DNA from: Myxococcota bacterium
GTDB taxonomy: Bacteria > Myxococcota_A > UBA9042 > DTJE01
Length of the DNA stretch: 62,019 nucleotides
Assembly (NCBI GenBank): GCA_017994695.1
Contig: JAGOKF010000014.1
Coordinates: 1 to 62,019 of the forward strand
Direction of reading: 5' to 3'
Below the pieces are notes generated by a model. The model was not told where the DNA came from and did no database searches. It saw only the letters and a list, made by a program, of their open reading frames with translations. Shown here piece after piece: positions 53,696-62,019 of the stretch (position 1 is its first letter; each line of letters opens with the position of its first letter). The translations under genes were made by a program, and so were the position numbers.

Positions 53696-53722
53696 GTGCC
53701 GCGGCCGGAGGGGGGAGGAGCG

Positions 53723-54142
53723 ATGAAGTCGTACCGCGAGGAACTGACCTTCCAGGTGCCGGCCCGGAGGGGCTTTGTGAACATCACGCCCCAGGTCCAG
53801 CGGGCCCTCGAACAGAGCGGCATCCGGGAGGGGCTCTGCCTGGTCAACGCGATGCACATCACGGCCAGCGTCTTCATCAACGACGACGAGCCGGGACTGC
53901 ACCAGGACTACGACGACTGGCTCGAAACCCTGGCCCCCCACGAGCCGGTGGGCCGCTACCGCCACAACCGGACCGGAGAGGACAATGGGGACGCGCACCT
54001 GAAGCGGCAGATCATGGGCCGCGAGGTGGTGATCGCGGTGACCGGCGGACGCCTCGACTTCGGCCCCTGGGAGCAGGTCTTCTACGGCGAGTTCGATGGG
54101 CGGCGAAGGAAGCGGGTCCTCGTGAAGATCATCGGCGAATAG
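53723..54142 (+). CDS. yjbQ: YjbQ/UPF0047 family protein
   Basis: The 139-residue product is a small cytoplasmic protein of the YjbQ family, described in some bacteria as a thiamine-phosphate synthase-like enzyme with a conserved His-rich metal site. It shows [19 protein letters not shown] (family hallmark) and [15 protein letters not shown] followed by [21 protein letters not shown]. These match the family well. The start ATG 53723 has GGGGGAGGAGCG. Its role in this organism is not known. Confidence 0.85.
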
Positions 54143-54970: not shown

Positions 54971-55801
54971 ATGCTGGACGCCAGGGAACGGAAGCGCCTG
55001 AAAGACAAGGCCCGGGAACTCCGGGAACGCATCATCGAGGTCACCTTCGCCTGCGGGGGCGCCCACGTGGGCGGGGCCTTCAGCCAGCACGAGATCCTGG
55101 TGGCCCTCTACTACAAGGTCCTCCGGATCGATCCGAAGAGGCCCGACTGGGAGGACCGCGACCGCTTCATCCTGTCGAAGGGCCACGGGGGCATCGGCCA
55201 CGCGGTGATCCTCGGCGACCTGGGCTTCTTCGACCCGGCCCTGCTGAAGGACTTCAACAAGACCGGATCCCCCTTCGGGATGCACCTGGACCGCCTGAAG
55301 GTCCCGGGGGTGGACTTCAGCACCGGGTCCCTGGGCCACGGCCTGGGGCTTGGCGTCGGGGCGGCCCTGGGGGCCCGGGTGGCGGGCAAGGACTGGCGGA
55401 CCTATGTGGTGCTGTCGGACGGCGAGTGCGCCGAGGGGTCCACCTGGGAGGCGGCGATGGCCGCCGGGAACTTCCGCGTGACGAACCTGACGGCCTTCGT
55501 GGACCGGAATCGGCTGTCCCTCGACGGCGAGACCGAGAAGATCATGCGCCTGGAGCCTCTCGAGGCGAAGTTCGAGGCCTTCGGGTGGCGGGCCCTGCGG
55601 ATCGACGGCCACGACTTCGACCAGATCCTCGACGCCGTGGAGGCCTCGAAGTCCGAGACGCAGCGCCCGGTGGCCGTCATCGCGGACACGATCAAGGGGA
55701 AGGGCGTGGACTACATGGAGAACCAGATCGCGTGGCACTACGGCGGCCTGGACGAGGAGATGAAGGAGAAGGCGATCCAGGCCATCCGGCGATCCAAGTG
55801 A
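54971..55801 (+). CDS. transketolase N-terminal subunit (ThDP-binding)
   Basis: The 276-residue product is the first half of a split transketolase. It has GGAHVGGAFSQHEILVALYY, SKGHGGIGHAVIL, the diphosphate-binding VDFSTGSLGHGLG and the GDG-like thiamine-binding motif (VVLSDGECAEGSTWEAAMAAGN...VDRN). ATG 54971 is spaced 7 nt from AGGGAG and is preferred over ATG 54965. With the next gene it would transfer a two-carbon unit between sugar phosphates. It begins the unusual operon that runs to the window end. Confidence 0.9.
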   Translation: MLDARERKRLKDKARELRERIIEVTFACGGAHVGGAFSQHEILVALYYKVLRIDPKRPDWEDRDRFILSKGHGGIGHAVILGDLGFFDPALLKDFNKTGSPFGMHLDRLKVPGVDFSTGSLGHGLGLGVGAALGARVAGKDWRTYVVLSDGECAEGSTWEAAMAAGNFRVTNLTAFVDRNRLSLDGETEKIMRLEPLEAKFEAFGWRALRIDGHDFDQILDAVEASKSETQRPVAVIADTIKGKGVDYMENQIAWHYGGLDEEMKEKAIQAIRRSK

Positions 55802-55853
55802 CGGGACCGGAAGGCGGGCGGGTCCTTCCGCCCGGCCCCGAGGGGAGGGAGAC

Positions 55854-56867
55854 ATGGCCAAGGCACAGGGTCTCACCTGGACGGTGCTCGATGCGGACCA
55901 CATGACCCAGGCGGAGATCTACGGGGAAGTCCTGACCCAGATCGGCCTGAAGGACCGACGGGTCGTGGCCCTGACCGCCGACCTGGCGAAATCCACCAAG
56001 ATCGGCAAGTTCGAGGAGAAGATCCCCGAGCGCTTCTTCAACGTCGGCATCGCCGAGGCGAACATGATCGCCATCGCCGCCGGGATGACCGAGGCGGGCC
56101 TGATCCCGGTGGTCAGCACCTTTGCGACCTTCGCCTCCATGCGGGCGGCGGAGTTCGTCCGCACGGACCTCTGCTACCAGAAGCGGGCCGTGAAGATCAT
56201 CGCCACCCACTCGGGGACCTCCTTCGGCCAGGCGGGTACCACGCACCACTGCACCGAGGACCTCGCCATCATGCGGTCCTTCGCCGGCATGACCGTGATC
56301 GCCCCCGCGGACGCCTACGAGACCGCCCGGGCCGTGTCGGCCTGCATCGACTGGCCGGGCCCGGTGTACATCCGCATCGGTCGCGGCTTCGAACCCCCGC
56401 TGCATCGCTCGATGGACTTCGATTTCCAGATCGGGAAGGCGATCCCGCTGCGGGACGGACGGGACATCACCGTGATCGCCACCGGGGTCTGCGTGCTGCA
56501 CGCCGTGGAGGCCGCCGAGCGGGCCGCCCAGAACGGGGTCTCGGTCCGGGTGCTGGACATGCACACCCTGAAGCCCCTGGACGAGGAGGCGGTCCGCCAG
56601 GCCCTCCTGGACACCCGGCGCATCATCACCGTCGAAGACCACTCGGTGATCGGGGGCCTCGGGGACGCGGTGGCGGACGTGATCGCCCGGACCGGAAAGG
56701 GGTGCGCCTTCCGGAAACTGGGGTACCAGGACGCCTTCTCGAAGGTGGGGTACTACGAGGACCTGCTCCACGACTACGGCCTGGACGCCGACGGCATCCT
56801 CGAGGCCATCGGGCAGGTGCTGAAGGCGGAGTTCGAGGCGGACGAGGACTGGGAGGACGAGATCTGA
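55854..56867 (+). CDS. transketolase C-terminal subunit
   Basis: The 337-residue product supplies the pyrimidine-binding and C-terminal domains of a split transketolase: RFFNVGIAEANMIAIAAGM (catalytic Glu), PVVSTFATFASMRAAE, THSGTSFGQAGTTHH and 'TLKPLDEEAVRQALL...TVEDHSVIGGLG'. It is separated from the N-terminal subunit by 52 nt, with AGGGAGGGAG. The stop shares one base with the next start (TGATG). Split transketolases are found in several bacterial biosynthetic and pentose pathways; the specific reaction here is not known. Confidence 0.9.
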   Translation: MAKAQGLTWTVLDADHMTQAEIYGEVLTQIGLKDRRVVALTADLAKSTKIGKFEEKIPERFFNVGIAEANMIAIAAGMTEAGLIPVVSTFATFASMRAAEFVRTDLCYQKRAVKIIATHSGTSFGQAGTTHHCTEDLAIMRSFAGMTVIAPADAYETARAVSACIDWPGPVYIRIGRGFEPPLHRSMDFDFQIGKAIPLRDGRDITVIATGVCVLHAVEAAERAAQNGVSVRVLDMHTLKPLDEEAVRQALLDTRRIITVEDHSVIGGLGDAVADVIARTGKGCAFRKLGYQDAFSKVGYYEDLLHDYGLDADGILEAIGQVLKAEFEADEDWEDEI

Positions 56868-57640
56868 TGGCGGATGCGACCCAGGAGTTGCGGGCCCGCG
56901 TGTTCCTCCGGTCGGCCTTGCCCCTGGTCAAGGTCGTGCTGGCCGAGCGGCCCCGTTTTCGGTACCTCCTCTACCGGGCGAAGGGCGTGGTGCAGTTCCA
57001 GGCCCGGGACAGCGAACAGGCCGCCCACGTGCTGCTGTCCCCGGAGGGCATCGACGTCCAGCCCGGCCGCCACGAGACCCCGGACCTCGTGATCGAGTTC
57101 CGGAGCCTGAAGGACCTGAACGCCTTCTTCGCCGGTGGCATGGCGCTGCCCTTCCTCCGGGGCCTTCCGGGGATCCCGCTGCTGTTGCGGCTGCTTCCGT
57201 TCCTGCTGAAACTGAAGATCCTGCTGCCGACGGCGATGCCCGACGACCCGGCGGAGAAGGCCCTGAAGGTCCGCATGCTGCTCCAGATGGTCGCCTCGGG
57301 TCTGTCCCAACTGATCAAGGGGGGGGACGAGGTGCTGGCCGGCTACGCGAAGAAGAGCCCCGACCGGGTCTTCCAGTTCACCGTGGAAGGCGGAGGTCCC
57401 GCGTGCTATCTCCGGGTCAAGGCCGGGAAGAGCAAGGCGGGCCTGGGGACCTACGCGAGGCGTCGGCCCTACGTCCACATGATCTTCCGGGACATCGACG
57501 GGGCCTTCGAGGTCCTGACCCAGCGGGTGGGGACCGTCGAGGCCGTGAAGCGCGGCTACCTGCGGGTCGAGGGGGCGATGGAGGGGAGCAAGGACATCGG
57601 GGCGTTCATGCAGCGCCTGGATGCCTTGACGATGGGATAG
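56867..57640 (+). CDS. protein with SCP2-like lipid-binding segments (first of pair)
   Basis: The 257-residue product has an N-terminal region with a strand-helix order (FQARDSEQAAHVLLSPEGIDVQPG, then ETPDLVIEFRSLKDLNAFFAGG). This resembles the SCP2 sterol-carrier pattern of a substrate strand followed by the PDL.I.....DL..GG hinge. A hydrophobic Leu/Pro helix (about 105-125) and a second similar region (about 165-255) follow. SCP2 domains form a hydrophobic pocket. No enzyme motif is visible. It overlaps the transketolase subunit and has a paralogue immediately downstream. The resemblance is by eye and moderate. Confidence 0.6.
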   Translation: MADATQELRARVFLRSALPLVKVVLAERPRFRYLLYRAKGVVQFQARDSEQAAHVLLSPEGIDVQPGRHETPDLVIEFRSLKDLNAFFAGGMALPFLRGLPGIPLLLRLLPFLLKLKILLPTAMPDDPAEKALKVRMLLQMVASGLSQLIKGGDEVLAGYAKKSPDRVFQFTVEGGGPACYLRVKAGKSKAGLGTYARRRPYVHMIFRDIDGAFEVLTQRVGTVEAVKRGYLRVEGAMEGSKDIGAFMQRLDALTMG

Positions 57641-57649
57641 GAGGGAGTC

Positions 57650-58459
57650 ATGGGACTGCCGATTCTGCGGAAGGTTGGGCTCGACGGGACCCCGTCCGTC
57701 CGGGATCGGGTGCGGGCGTCGATGCACCTCCACGCGGTGCTGGGGAGCCTGCCCCACCTGGTGCGACTGGACCCCGAGGCGGCGCGACTGGCCCGGGGGG
57801 TCGGGACCGTGGCGCTGGAATTCCGGGTCTATGGGGGACCGCGGGTCGTGCTGGAGTTCCGCCAGGGAACGGTGGCGGCCCGACGCGAGGGAGGCAGCGA
57901 CGTGGGGCTGTTCTTCCCCTCCTGCCAGGCCCTGAACCGGATGTTCGACGGCGAGAAGGTGACCCCGATCCCCTTCAAGTTCCGCGGGCTCGGGAACCTG
58001 CGGGCGCTCCAGCGGTTCCCGGCCCTGACCGACCGGCTGACCCACTTCCTGAAGCCGACCCGGGAGGCCCTGGAGGACCCGTCCTTCCGGGCCCGGCACG
58101 TCGAGATGTCGCTGCTGGTGGGACTGGCGGCGGTCCAGGCCCTCATCGAAAATGACCCCAAGGTGGGCCAGCGCATGGGCCCTGCCCTCCGCCACGGGAC
58201 GATTCAGTACGAGGTCCCGGGGGTCTTCGCGGTCCATGTCTCCCTGTCCCCCAGGGGCATCGAGGCGAAGGCCGGGCCGGTCGAGAACCCGGCCACCACG
58301 ATCACCATCCGGGACGTGGACCTGGCCCTGGGGCTCCTCCAGGGGACCGTGGACACCTTCGCGGCCAACGGCAGCGGCGACATCCGGGCCTCCGGGGACC
58401 TGCACCTGGCCGACGAGTTCAACCAGGTCTTCGAGCGGGTCGGCTTCTACCTGAAATAG
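57650..58459 (+). CDS. protein with SCP2-like lipid-binding segments (second of pair)
   Basis: The 269-residue product resembles the preceding gene in layout. An N-terminal strand-rich part (VALEFRVYGGPRVVLEF) leads to a Phe-rich FFPSCQALNRMFDGEKV hinge, and a helical middle (about 110-165) to a C-terminal beta/alpha part with VHVSLSPRGIEAKAG and PATTITIRDVDLALGLLQG, which is SCP2-like. The likely pairing of two lipid-carrier-like proteins suggests a hydrophobic intermediate or membrane ligand. It starts 9 nt after the previous stop and ends 13 nt before the aminotransferase. Family assignment is moderate. Confidence 0.6.
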   Translation: MGLPILRKVGLDGTPSVRDRVRASMHLHAVLGSLPHLVRLDPEAARLARGVGTVALEFRVYGGPRVVLEFRQGTVAARREGGSDVGLFFPSCQALNRMFDGEKVTPIPFKFRGLGNLRALQRFPALTDRLTHFLKPTREALEDPSFRARHVEMSLLVGLAAVQALIENDPKVGQRMGPALRHGTIQYEVPGVFAVHVSLSPRGIEAKAGPVENPATTITIRDVDLALGLLQGTVDTFAANGSGDIRASGDLHLADEFNQVFERVGFYLK

Positions 58460-58472
58460 GGCGGAGGGGACG

Positions 58473-59711
58473 ATGAAACTGTATCGCTTCGACCGGTCCC
58501 AGGAACTGTTCGCCCGGGCGACCCGGGTGACGCCCTCGGGAATTTCGGGCAACAAGAACCCGGCCTTCGCGGTCCCGGGGTCCTTCCCCTACTACGCGGA
58601 GCGGGGTTCGGGATGCCGCTACTGGGATGTCGACGGCAACGAGTACATCGACTACCTGGCCGGCTACGGGCCGATCGTGCTGGGGTACAACGACCCGGTG
58701 GTGGACGCCGCGGCCGAGGCCCAGCGGAAACTGGGGGCCGCCTTCAACCACCCCACGCCCCGGGCGGTGGAACTGGCCGAAAAGATGGTCTCCCTGATCC
58801 AGGGCATGGACTGGGCCGCCTTCGGCAAGAACGGAAGCGACGTGACCGCCTACGCGATCCAGACCGCCCGGGAGCACACCCAGCGTCGCAAGATCCTGAA
58901 GGCCCGGGGCGCCTACCACGGGAGCCAGTCCTGGTGCCGCAGCGGCCTGGGGGGCCTGATCGAGACGGACTACGAGCACGTTCTGGACTTCGGGTGGAAC
59001 GACGCCACCGAGGTCGAGGACCTGATGAAGCGCCACGACGGGGACGTGGCGGGGGTCATCATCACCCCCTACCACCACCCGGCCTTCGGGGACCAGGTGT
59101 TGCCGAAGCCCGGGTTCCTGCAGGATCTCCGGGCCCTCTGCGACCGGTACGGAGCGGCGCTGATCCTGGACGACGTCCGGGCGGGCTTCCGGCTGGACCT
59201 CCGGGGCAGCCACGCGTACTTCGGCTTCCAGCCGGACCTGGCGTGCTACTGCAAGGCCATGGCGAACGGCTACGCGGTGGCCGCCTGTATGGGGACCGAC
59301 GCGATGAAGCCCGCCGCCTCCCGGGTCTTCTTCACCGGGACCTACTACACCTCGGCGGTGGAGCAGGCCGCGTCGCTGGCCTGCCTGGCGGAACTGGAGA
59401 AGCGCAACGCGGTGGACCACATGATGGCGATGGGCCGGAGGCTGACCGAGGGCCTCGGGAGACTGGCCGAGGCCCGGGGGCTCCAGGTGACCCTGAGCGG
59501 CCCGCCGACGCTGCCCTTCATGACCTTCACGAACGAGAAGAACTTCCGCCGGAGCCAGCGGTTCAGCGGCGAGGCGGCCCGGCGGGGCGTGCTGCTCCAC
59601 CCCCACCACAACTGGTTCATCATCCATGCCCACACCGAGGCGGACATCGACCGGACCCTCGACGTGGCGGACACCTGCTTCGGCATCGTGAAGAAGGAGT
59701 TCGGCGGCTGA
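58473..59711 (+). CDS. class III aminotransferase, GSA-aminomutase-like
   Basis: PLP-dependent enzyme of 412 residues. It resembles glutamate-1-semialdehyde 2,1-aminomutase in the N-terminus (ARATRVTPSGISG, 'YWDVDGNEYIDYLAGYGPIVLGY') and in the core (GKNGSDVTAYAIQTAREHT, ARGAYHGS). The catalytic loop is DDVRAGFR (233-240, DEVxTGFR in most) and the PLP Lys is probably Lys261 (CYCKAMANGY). Because it is in an operon with sugar and lipid genes rather than with heme genes, I infer a side-branch aminotransferase, not hemL. The start has GGGCGGAGGGGACG. Confidence 0.85.
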   Translation: MKLYRFDRSQELFARATRVTPSGISGNKNPAFAVPGSFPYYAERGSGCRYWDVDGNEYIDYLAGYGPIVLGYNDPVVDAAAEAQRKLGAAFNHPTPRAVELAEKMVSLIQGMDWAAFGKNGSDVTAYAIQTAREHTQRRKILKARGAYHGSQSWCRSGLGGLIETDYEHVLDFGWNDATEVEDLMKRHDGDVAGVIITPYHHPAFGDQVLPKPGFLQDLRALCDRYGAALILDDVRAGFRLDLRGSHAYFGFQPDLACYCKAMANGYAVAACMGTDAMKPAASRVFFTGTYYTSAVEQAASLACLAELEKRNAVDHMMAMGRRLTEGLGRLAEARGLQVTLSGPPTLPFMTFTNEKNFRRSQRFSGEAARRGVLLHPHHNWFIIHAHTEADIDRTLDVADTCFGIVKKEFGG

Positions 59712-59736
59712 TCGGGCCGCCGTCGAGAGGAGCCCC

Positions 59737-60969
59737 GTGAGCGACCGACTCTTCGACCTGCACTGCCATCCCAGCCTGAAGATCCACTACCTGCCCTACC
59801 TCTCCCGGACCTTCCACGCGGCCGTGGGCCAGGAACGGTTCTGGAATCCCCTGAACTTCCAGACCCGCTACCAGAACCTGAAGAACAGCCCCGTGAAGGT
59901 GCTCGTGAACGCCCACTATGTGATCGAGCCGACCTTCGCCGGCAAGGGGATCAAGCGCCTGGGGCGCACGCTGGCGAAGGTGCTCACCGGGCAGTGGTAC
60001 GAGCGCCTGGTCCGGGCCGACCCCTGGGAGTCCCTGCTGGCCATGATGGACGACCTGGAACAGGCGGTCCAGAACACCAACCTGTTCGTGCTGGGAGGCA
60101 AGCGGCTCCGGATGGTCCGGCGATTCGCGGACATCCGGGACCTGAGCCCCCGGGAGATCGGCGTGGTCCATGCCATCGAGGGCCCCCATGCCCTGGGGTA
60201 CCGGGACCCCGGGCTGGACCGGGAGGCCTTCTGGCAGAGGACGAAGCAGCGCCTGGGCCTGCTGAAGGACCGGGGCGTGTCGATGATCGGCCTGGCCCAC
60301 TTCATGGACAACGCCTTCGTGCCCCAGATCGACAGCACCGAAATCATCCCGAAGGTGCGCAAGGGAACGGTGGAGTGGGCCCGGGACGACGCGTTCTACG
60401 AGATGCAGCGGGCGAACTGGTCCTTCGGGGACCCGGAACACCCCTCCGAGGAGTTCGTCCGGGAATGCCTGCGCCTGGGAATCCTGGTGGACCTGGTGCA
60501 CGTCCAGGAGGAGGCCCGGTGGCGCATCTACGATCTCTGCGCCGAGGCGGGGCGGCCGGTGGTGCTGAGCCACAACGGTCTCCAGCACTTCTTCCCCCAC
60601 GAGTACAACCTGTCGGACCAGGAGGTCCTGCGGATCCGGGAACTGGGCGGGGTGATCGGGCTGATCCTGTCGAAGCGGTGGCTGCTGTCTCCCGAGGACT
60701 GCCACTACAGCGGCGGAGACGGGATCGCGGACCTGATCGAGGTGATGCTGTACGTGCGACAACTCACCGGGGACGTGGCCTGTATCGGCATCGGGACCGA
60801 TTTCGACGGCCTGACGCACCCGTTCACGGACTGCTGCAAGCCCGACGAACTGGACCGCATCGCCTGGCGGATGAAGAAGCACTTCAGCGCCCGGGAGATC
60901 GACGACGTGCTGTTCGGGAACGCCTATCGGGTCTTCGAGAGGGGGTGGGTGGATGTCCGGCAGGAGTAA
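59737..60969 (+). CDS. M19-type membrane dipeptidase / amidohydrolase
   Basis: The 410-residue product starts at a GTG (ribosome-binding GAGAGGAGCC). It resembles renal-dipeptidase-like M19 enzymes with zinc-binding FDLHCHPS (H9, H11), a Glu in VVHAIEGPHA, HVQEE, VVLSHNGLQHFF and GTDFDGL; these correspond in order to the metal ligands and the catalytic Asp of the family. M19 enzymes hydrolyse dipeptides and some lactams. No signal peptide is apparent, so it is probably cytoplasmic. Its stop overlaps the next gene by 17 nt. Confidence 0.85.
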   Translation: MSDRLFDLHCHPSLKIHYLPYLSRTFHAAVGQERFWNPLNFQTRYQNLKNSPVKVLVNAHYVIEPTFAGKGIKRLGRTLAKVLTGQWYERLVRADPWESLLAMMDDLEQAVQNTNLFVLGGKRLRMVRRFADIRDLSPREIGVVHAIEGPHALGYRDPGLDREAFWQRTKQRLGLLKDRGVSMIGLAHFMDNAFVPQIDSTEIIPKVRKGTVEWARDDAFYEMQRANWSFGDPEHPSEEFVRECLRLGILVDLVHVQEEARWRIYDLCAEAGRPVVLSHNGLQHFFPHEYNLSDQEVLRIRELGGVIGLILSKRWLLSPEDCHYSGGDGIADLIEVMLYVRQLTGDVACIGIGTDFDGLTHPFTDCCKPDELDRIAWRMKKHFSAREIDDVLFGNAYRVFERGWVDVRQE

Positions 60970-62019
60970 GGAGACGGGGGGAGGTTCCAGGGACGCGAAG
61001 TCCGGGGGGGCGGCGGCCGGGTCCCCTGCACGGCCTTCCCGCCCGGCACCGGTGGATGCGGACCGCCTGGCGGCCGTGGCGGCCCGGTTCCGGCCCAAGG
61101 GGATCGTCCCTGCGGCGCCCCGTCCTGTGGGACCGGTTTCACCGTCCGCGGAAACGGCGCCCCAGCCGCCCGATCTGCCAACCCGTCTGGTGGAGGAACC
61201 GGGTGCGAAGAAGGCGAAGACCGCGGCCCCAGCCGCCAAGGCCCCTCCCCGGAAGCGGAAGACGCCGGGAACCGACCGGCCGGTCGCCGAGGCTCTGGCG
61301 GAAAGGCCGATGGTCGAGGACCCCGAGGTCGCCGTGCCGGAGCCCCCGGCTTCTTCGGCCCCTGACCCGCGTCCGACCCGGGAACAGGAAAAGCAGCAGG
61401 TCCAGGAGTTGATCTCCCGGATCGTCCGGGAGTGCCCCCGGAGGCAGCCGACCTCCGAGGACGAACTCCGGGCCTCCCGGATCGTCGAGGAGGAGTTCCG
61501 GCGCCTGGGGCTGGTCCTCCGGGAACACACCTTCCTGTTCAACGACAGCCTCTACAAGAACTCGCTGCTCCATGCGGCCCCGGCCGTGGTCGGGACGGCG
61601 ATCTCCGGGGTGGCCCCGGCGCTGGCCTTGCCGCTGCACCTGCTCCCGGCCCTTTCCTACTACCTGGAATCGAACCGGAAGGTGTACCTGGGACGCCGCC
61701 TGTTCCCCTTCAAGCCGTCCCGGAACATCCTGGGCATCCTGCCCGCCGAGGGCCTGGAACCGGCCCTCCGGGTGGTCCTGTGCGCCCACGTGGACGCGGC
61801 CTTCACCGGCTTTTTCTTCCGGCCGGAGGTCCTGAAGGCCGTGGGTCGGGACCCGCCCCTGGGGCAGAAGTGGATCCACCGGGCCGTGGAACTGACGGTC
61901 CGTTCGCAGTTCGCCCTGGCGGCGGCGGACGTGGCCCGGATGGTCCTGGGGCCCCTGTCCTGGCCCCTGCGGCCCCTGGAATTCCTGCTGACCGTGCCCT
62001 CCCTGCTTGCGACGCTGAC
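60953..62019 (+). CDS. M28-like zinc peptidase with disordered N-terminus (3' partial)
   Basis: The frame stays open from ATG 60953 to the last base, so the gene is cut by the window. The first 140 residues are a basic and Pro/Ala-rich disordered region (for example AAKAPPRKRKTPG), then a helix (QQVQELISRIVRECP). An M28-type domain begins with RASRIVEEEFRRLGL and SRNILGILPA. VVLCAHVDAAFTG is the metal-binding strand (HxD) of such aminopeptidases. One or more hydrophobic segments (HAAPAVVGTAISGVAPALALPLH) interrupt it, suggesting membrane attachment. The overlap of 17 nt with the dipeptidase gene indicates coupling. The second half, including most metal ligands, lies outside. Confidence 0.72.
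   Translation, partial: MSGRSKETGGGSRDAKSGGAAAGSPARPSRPAPVDADRLAAVAARFRPKGIVPAAPRPVGPVSPSAETAPQPPDLPTRLVEEPGAKKAKTAAPAAKAPPRKRKTPGTDRPVAEALAERPMVEDPEVAVPEPPASSAPDPRPTREQEKQQVQELISRIVRECPRRQPTSEDELRASRIVEEEFRRLGLVLREHTFLFNDSLYKNSLLHAAPAVVGTAISGVAPALALPLHLLPALSYYLESNRKVYLGRRLFPFKPSRNILGILPAEGLEPALRVVLCAHVDAAFTGFFFRPEVLKAVGRDPPLGQKWIHRAVELTVRSQFALAAADVARMVLGPLSWPLRPLEFLLTVPSLLATL

Follow-up and report, generated by a model that had tools for sequence, protein, structure and literature searches.

What does an operon make that joins a split transketolase, two SCP2-family proteins, an aminotransferase and two peptidases? Such an operon occupies positions 54971 to 62019 of the stretch analysed here, a contig of 62,019 nucleotides from a Myxococcota bacterium (GenBank assembly GCA_017994695.1, contig JAGOKF010000014.1; in the following, the window). 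A first-pass annotation, made from the sequence alone, had described six complete genes and one partial gene on one strand and had proposed an undescribed pathway that modifies or remodels an amino-acid- or aminosugar-bearing lipid. All seven open frames were found in these places on the plus strand, and an undescribed pathway for an amine-bearing lipid fits the evidence, whereas an aminosugar lipid and general lipid remodelling were not supported. The evidence points more specifically to the transfer of a two-carbon unit onto a hydrophobic aldehyde, followed by transamination. We propose, with about even confidence, that the core of the operon would be a two-enzyme, two-carrier pathway that makes a sphingoid-type 2-amino-1,3-diol base without serine palmitoyltransferase (SPT). 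Genomes, loci and contigs are denoted by G, L and C labels, respectively, and the window genome is G000.

Conservation of the operon core

The two halves of the transketolase (TK_N and TK_C), the SCP2-family proteins SCP2a and SCP2b, and the aminotransferase (AT) were treated as the operon core, because the genes for an M19 and an M28 peptidase follow AT in some relatives only. When other Myxococcota genomes were searched, the gene order proved to be conserved: TK_N-TK_C-SCP2a-SCP2b-AT is shared by 12 of the 13 members of the window's family, wherever the contig was long enough (in G008 and G009, which are among the 12, the contig ends inside the core block). G007 is the sole family member without the operon. 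Within the family, the identity of AT falls to 42%.

An altered acceptor site in the split transketolase

The split transketolase had been recognized in the first-pass annotation, and Pfam matches to Transketolase_N, Transket_pyr and Transketolase_C bear this out. In an alignment to solved enzymes, all residues for thiamine diphosphate (ThDP) binding and catalysis are kept (H26, H66, H100, D155, N185, H261, E411, F437 and H473). By contrast, the operon enzyme has none of the three residues by which a sugar-phosphate-acceptor transketolase is recognized: R91 is changed to N, R358 to A and D469 to A. The same sites are altered beyond the window. In every SCP2a-paired transketolase that covers them, from Myxococcota, Planctomycetota and Zymogenaceae, residue 91 is N or G and residue 469 is A or G, and R358 is replaced by A, N, S or D in all but genus g3; the housekeeping transketolases retain R91 and D469. 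S385, H461 and R520 are kept in the window TK_C, and H461 is additionally lost in the enzymes of f34, f48 and G434. The SCP2a-paired transketolases cluster apart from human transketolase, the split transketolase of Carboxydothermus hydrogenoformans (ChTK) and the genome's other split pair (support 84/98; the branches of the other group are long).

In the transketolase of E. coli, D469 forms a salt bridge with R91, and variants at D469, S385 and R520 accept non-polar aldehydes in place of phosphorylated ones (PMC5073344). ChTK takes bulkier aldehydes (PMC7661550). Because of these properties and the loss of R91 and D469, the acceptor of the operon enzyme is likely an unphosphorylated aldehyde without an alpha-hydroxyl group. 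Since the partner of the enzyme is an SCP2 protein, we infer that this would be a fatty aldehyde.

The operon enzyme was ruled out as the only transketolase of the cell by a separate full-length housekeeping enzyme (705-aa frame, G000:C10); in four outgroup families, a single transketolase was found in each genome examined. A second split transketolase-like pair is present in G000 (C47:2900-4700, L161) as well as in G001 and G007 (loci L062 and L065). In this pair, H26 is changed to Tyr and H100 to Ala, and, lacking both histidines, the G000 pair was set aside as a different ThDP enzyme. Upstream of the ThDP-dependent operon lies a UPF0047/YjbQ gene (53696-54142; TIGR00149, named secondary thiamine-phosphate synthase), and such a gene also occurs near the operon in L019 and L022.

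The aminotransferase is related to FumI

AT had initially been taken for an aminotransferase of the glutamate-1-semialdehyde type. This assignment had to be revised, because, among characterised enzymes, AT is closest to FumI (39% identity) and not to GSAM (31%) or to the genome's own HemL (30%). The best solved relative is the "aminopentol aminotransferase" FumI (6hbs, 332 bits; GSAM, 186 bits). HemL itself was ruled out by profile score, tree placement and active-site residues. Against the NCBIfam hemL profile, AT scored 217.5 bits with a cut-off of 527, whereas the genome's own HemL (G000:C137) scored 595.7 bits. In the tree, AT did not group with true HemL; instead, all SCP2-linked aminotransferases and FumI formed one clade (100/100), within which FumI has a long branch. 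Lys261 of AT aligns with the catalytic lysine, and the DDVRAGFR motif that marks the FumI type is present. The gate-loop insertion of GSAM is absent from AT through a 12-residue deletion, as it is from FumI, and the GSAM segment with the active-site Glu (FE..F) is replaced by HPHHNWF, an HP.HN segment that is common to FumI.

By family, AT is classified as a FumI-type long-chain aminotransferase, and activity on 2-amino-3-hydroxy long chains is predicted. With pyruvate as the amino acceptor, FumI removes the 2-amino group from hydrolysed fumonisin B1, yielding a 3-hydroxy-2-ketone (PMC2933618).

A further GSAM-like aminotransferase was noted near a single-domain SCP2 protein (148-aa frame) in L206 (G011:C128:12861-14597), and related aminotransferase genes occur in G005 and G012.

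Two modules with one carrier per enzyme

The two SCP2-like proteins kept their family assignment both under profile search, with PF02036 above cut-off for each paralogue, and by predicted fold; the description had to be corrected in that each is about twice as long as one SCP2 domain. The AlphaFold model of SCP2b (mean pLDDT 93.6) contains two successive SCP2 folds. Domain 2 (residues 147-267) matches the human SCP2-like domain with a Z score of 12.8, and domain 1, modelled alone (pLDDT 88.8), matches it with a Z score of about 10 and has UbiJ as its best Foldseek match. UbiJ is an SCP2 accessory protein proposed to serve cytosolic ubiquinone enzymes (PMC9499169). SCP2a aligns with SCP2b over its full length in one profile and would therefore share the two-domain plan. 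Both proteins are classified as SCP2-family lipid carriers, with lipid binding predicted.

The gene arrangements and the tree described below indicate that the operon is composed of two modules, TK-SCP2a and SCP2b-AT, with one tandem-SCP2 carrier per enzyme. A profile built from the SCP2 proteins detected full-length members in 18 of 379 Myxococcota genomes. The two modules were also found apart, in Myxococcota, Planctomycetota and Zymogenaceae. In G059, SCP2b-AT and TK_N-TK_C-SCP2a are unlinked and lie on different contigs, and in G243 and G326, TK_N-TK_C-SCP2a is followed by a gene of the fatty-acid-hydroxylase family. In G284, the same three genes are accompanied by a 308-aa gene without a Pfam match, whose product looks like a membrane protein, and by a class III aminotransferase that is unrelated to the operon AT and has the NCBIfam family PigE as its best match. 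G434 (Planctomycetota) repeats this arrangement with an aminotransferase 62% identical to that of G284. The survey of 392 Planctomycetota genomes yielded only two carriers, and the system is thus rare and patchy in this phylum. Four distant genomes outside the phylum, which were reached via AT, carry the second SCP2 as well; in the three that could be read, the transketolase halves stand directly before it, and TK_C is 60-67% identical to that of the window.

In a tree of 36 SCP2 proteins, 16 transketolase-linked and 20 aminotransferase-linked members were separated by a single 100/100 branch; two of the 16 (L187 and L105) were assigned by similarity, because their contigs end before any transketolase could be read. 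This split indicates that the SCP2 duplication is old and that each carrier stayed with its own enzyme. We consider it probable that the transketolase and AT act sequentially on a hydrophobic, carrier-bound substrate.

Two further neighbourhoods were noted. In the Zymogenaceae locus L213:4723-15685, the genes on either side of TK-SCP2a encode two amino-acid permeases, an alanine dehydrogenase and a class III aminotransferase, neighbours that would suit an alanine-driven transamination. In L030:2474-5077 (Chloroflexota) and L034:5412-7946 (Zymogenaceae), fused E1-type ThDP dehydrogenases of the 2-oxoacid-dehydrogenase kind lie beside or near SCP2b-AT. The E1 gene of L034 is not a clean substitute for the transketolase, because the genome of L034 also carries a true TK-SCP2a module.

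Serine palmitoyltransferase is depleted in module carriers

The scores for the SPT profile NF047600 in Myxococcota fell into a group of at least 400 bits and a larger, lower group that includes BioF and glycine C-acetyltransferase-like enzymes. Synthases with at least 400 bits were called SPT-grade (92 Myxococcota genomes, counted from the listed matches). In comparisons that rest, here and below, on few lineages, an SPT-grade synthase was found in none of the 18 Myxococcota module carriers, versus 92 of the 361 other genomes (Fisher p 0.006, uncorrected for kinship; 379 genomes). The window genome, which is 96.7% complete, has no match to NF047600 at 1e-60 and none to TIGR01825, and of the family's 12 operon carriers, nine in all have no NF047600 match at this threshold. 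SPT-grade synthases are present in the operon-less G007 (452 bits) and in G013 from the sister family (467 bits). Twelve distant genomes contain SCP2b-AT; the four with a transketolase-type SCP2 have no match to the alpha-oxoamine synthase (AOS) family or traces (E 3e-8 and 3e-4), and the remaining eight have one or more such matches each.

In L204:5210-7592 (sister family) and L069:1384-3846 (operon-less family member), a conserved GNAT-family gene (53% identity) stands directly behind the SPT gene; it may encode a ceramide synthase. We claim no such enzyme for operon carriers, because a search for the GNAT gene of G007 yielded only relatives of 28-31% identity, in G000, G001 and G006.

A proposed pathway and its alternatives

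In the proposed first step, SCP2a would present a fatty aldehyde to the split transketolase, which would add a two-carbon ketol unit from hydroxypyruvate or a ketose phosphate, giving a 1,3-dihydroxy-2-ketone. In the second step, the FumI-type AT, served by SCP2b, would add an amino group at C2, so that the 2-amino-1,3-diol results; the likely amino donor would be alanine or serine. A transketolase acting on R-CHO gives R-CH(OH)-CO-CH2OH, which contains the same 3-hydroxy-2-keto group as the FumI product, and this chemical match is the heart of the model. Speculatively, serine as the amino donor would also yield hydroxypyruvate, the classical irreversible transketolase donor, and the net reaction would then be fatty aldehyde + serine -> sphinganine-type base + CO2. 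More tentatively, and at somewhat less than even confidence, we suggest that a transketolase acting on a fatty aldehyde, a transaminase and dedicated SCP2 carriers may form a natural SPT-independent sphingoid route that replaces SPT in several bacterial lineages.

Several observations weigh against this proposal. FumI is known to run in the deaminating direction. Most SCP2a-paired transketolases still have S385, H461 and R520, residues that line the sugar-phosphate site. No N-acyltransferase is linked to the operon, and we know of no sphingolipid from these uncultured bacteria. The operon carriers G005 and G011 also hold partial SPT-like synthases at contig ends, and in at least one genome counted in the AOS group, G387, the synthase is a glycine C-acetyltransferase and not SPT. 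SCP2b-AT furthermore occurs alongside AOS or SPT in Chloroflexota (where SPT is encoded at another place in the genome), Gammaproteobacteria and Verrucomicrobia. Because the amine should already exist there, AT must act otherwise or in reverse in such loci; this keeps a degradative direction alive and holds our confidence in the biosynthetic proposal at about even.

Some of these loci stand out in themselves. In L032:2-13221 and L035:259-11224 (uncultured Gammaproteobacteria), a reducing polyketide synthase (PKS), an AOS, SCP2b and a FumI-type AT are encoded in a row, in L032 together with a class IV aminotransferase and a GT2 gene. In L041:2414-9989 (Verrucomicrobia), genes for an SPT-like synthase and a GT28-like protein lie close to SCP2b. 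All three look like undescribed sphingoid-like clusters. The PKS-AOS pair of L032 and L035 resembles SgaAB, which makes sphinganine (PMC12134224).

The main rival is the degradative direction, which we regard as unlikely. AT would deaminate a scavenged sphingoid-type base, the transketolase would cleave the 3-hydroxy-2-ketone into a fatty aldehyde and a two-carbon unit that is passed to a sugar, and the M28 and M19 peptidases would free the base or process its amide. The transketolase reaction is reversible with sugar partners, a genome without SPT could draw on environmental sphingolipids, and two hydrolase genes stand behind the core in the window. FumI itself deaminates with pyruvate in a catabolic pathway (PMC2933618). 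However, the f1 operons have no linked genes for uptake, regulation or beta-oxidation, and 12 of 13 genomes retain the core. The absence of SPT-grade synthases from carriers and their presence in the operon-less relative and the sister-family genome fit a biosynthetic replacement better.

Likewise unlikely, and ranked next, is that the transketolase and AT act on another hydrophobic aldehyde or ketone, e.g., a polyketide, hopanoid or terpenoid chain, so that the sphingoid link would be one of analogy only. SCP2 folds bind varied lipids, the top matches of domain 1 are to UbiJ from the ubiquinone pathway, SCP2b-AT lies beside a reducing PKS and an AOS in L032 and L035, and the aminotransferases of G284 and G434 are PigE-like; the kinship with FumI and the depletion of SPT, in contrast, indicate a 2-amino-3-hydroxy chain in particular. 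That a sugar-phosphate split transketolase and a semialdehyde-type aminotransferase merely share an operon by descent is already disfavoured and very improbable: both split transketolases and class III aminotransferases are widespread, and most of these transketolases retain S385, H461 and R520. However, unlinked modules in different phyla bring together these same partners, each enzyme with its own kind of SCP2 paralogue, and every SCP2a-paired transketolase tested has lost acceptor-site residues.

Gene layout and accessory peptidases

The coordinates of the seven genes are listed in Table 1. The spacings between them are 52, -4, 9, 13, 25 and -17 nt with the starts as used; the SCP2a frame of the analyses opens at a CTG (56864), and its first ATG (56867) overlaps the TK_C stop codon by 1 nt. 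The window is the whole of contig C8, and the contig end at 62019 cuts the last gene, so that the operon cannot be followed further in G000.

Table 1. Genes of the operon in the window
Gene	Positions	Strand	Basis
TK_N, thiamine-binding half of split transketolase, 276 aa	54971..55801	+	Pfam PF00456 Transketolase_N 4e-41; nearest solved structure 6yak (N half, split transketolase)
TK_C, pyrimidine-binding and C-terminal half of split transketolase, 337 aa	55854..56867	+	PF02779 Transket_pyr 4e-40 and PF02780 Transketolase_C 6e-29; nearest solved structure 6yaj
SCP2a, SCP2-family lipid carrier partnering transketolase (predicted), 257 aa	56867..57640	+	PF02036 1.5e-6; beside transketolase halves in every readable locus
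SCP2b, tandem-SCP2 lipid carrier partnering aminotransferase (predicted), 269 aa	57650..58459	+	PF02036 1.1e-6; AlphaFold; adjoins AT across phyla
AT, class III pyridoxal phosphate (PLP) aminotransferase of FumI kind, 412 aa, catalytic Lys261	58473..59711	+	PF00202 Aminotran_3 3e-44; best PDB match 6hbs FumI
Peptidase_M19-like protein, 410 aa, accessory	59737..60969	+	PF01244 7e-33 over residues 238-401
M28-type peptidase, membrane-anchored, 5' part only (contig end), accessory	60953..62019	+	73% identical to L019:12481-13542

The two last genes had been annotated as a dipeptidase and an M28-type peptidase and counted as members of the pathway. Both family names held, the first through its Peptidase_M19 match and the second through the complete same-genus orthologue in L019 (564 aa; Peptidase_M28, PF04389, 1e-20), which has a long N-terminal extension; the partial gene itself has no Pfam match. 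A core role was not supported. An M19 gene is found after AT in the window genus, L022, L023 and L027, and an M28 gene adjoins AT or lies within about 9 kb of it in the window genus, L012, L020, L021, L024, L025 and L027. Standing behind AT in only some relatives, the peptidases were rejected as core members and are taken as accessory; the M28 peptidase may still have a part in the pathway. The first metal motif of the M19 protein is DLHCH and not the usual HxD, and, together with the partial Pfam match, this suggests that it may not be a normal dipeptidase.

Comparison with known systems

The protein families are all known; what the literature searched does not describe is their combination, the alterations in the transketolase and the dedication of one SCP2 carrier to each enzyme. 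No natural case of a transketolase that takes part in lipid or long-chain-base synthesis came up in a search with thin coverage of subscription journals. The novelty would thus lie in the pathway, if real, and not in the folds. If true, the proposal would mean a second, unrelated origin of the sphingoid-base lipid class, a carrier-per-enzyme arrangement for soluble lipid synthesis, and natural enzymes for a cascade that chemists had to engineer. Genome and metagenome screens for SPT alone, as in a Black Sea survey (PMC11334938), would miss sphingolipid producers. One operon carrier, L025, comes from the metagenome bin BS150m-G23, which is probably from the Black Sea.

Each component has a known counterpart. 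ChTK (6yaj/6yak) is the closest solved relative of the transketolase, is likewise split and tolerates bulky aldehydes; unlike the operon enzyme, it keeps R91, R358 and D469, and no SCP2 partner has been reported. FumI (6hbs; Sphingopyxis MTA144) shares with AT the class III fold, 39% identity, the DDVRAGFR and HP.HN segments and the missing GSAM gate loop, but it deaminates an external mycotoxin, whereas AT belongs with an SCP2 carrier and a transketolase. UbiJ of the Ubi metabolon is also an SCP2-fold lipid presenter proposed to serve cytosolic enzymes; its solved structures contain one SCP2 domain, and its pathway is that of ubiquinone.

For the pathway as a whole, PigD and PigE of prodigiosin synthesis are a partial analogue, as a ThDP-dependent C-C ligase is followed by a class III aminotransferase acting on a fatty chain, and the G284 aminotransferase matches PigE. 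However, PigD is a ThDP enzyme other than a transketolase, and to our knowledge there are no SCP2 partners in that pathway. Artificial transketolase-transaminase cascades reach 2-amino-1,3-diols by the identical two-step chemistry (PMC5813273), but they are engineered, use short polar substrates and have no lipid carriers. The SPT route to sphingoid bases, including SgaAB (PMC12134224), leads to a long-chain 2-amino-1,3-diol, as would the operon pathway, and the two are complementary in their presence across Myxococcota. The proposed pathway differs in that it would dispense with an AOS: the C-C bond would be formed from an aldehyde by a ThDP-dependent transketolase and the amine introduced by a separate transaminase, and no 3-keto reductase would be needed, because the 3-hydroxyl group would be set directly. 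Every sphingoid-base pathway described so far, as far as we know, starts with an AOS.

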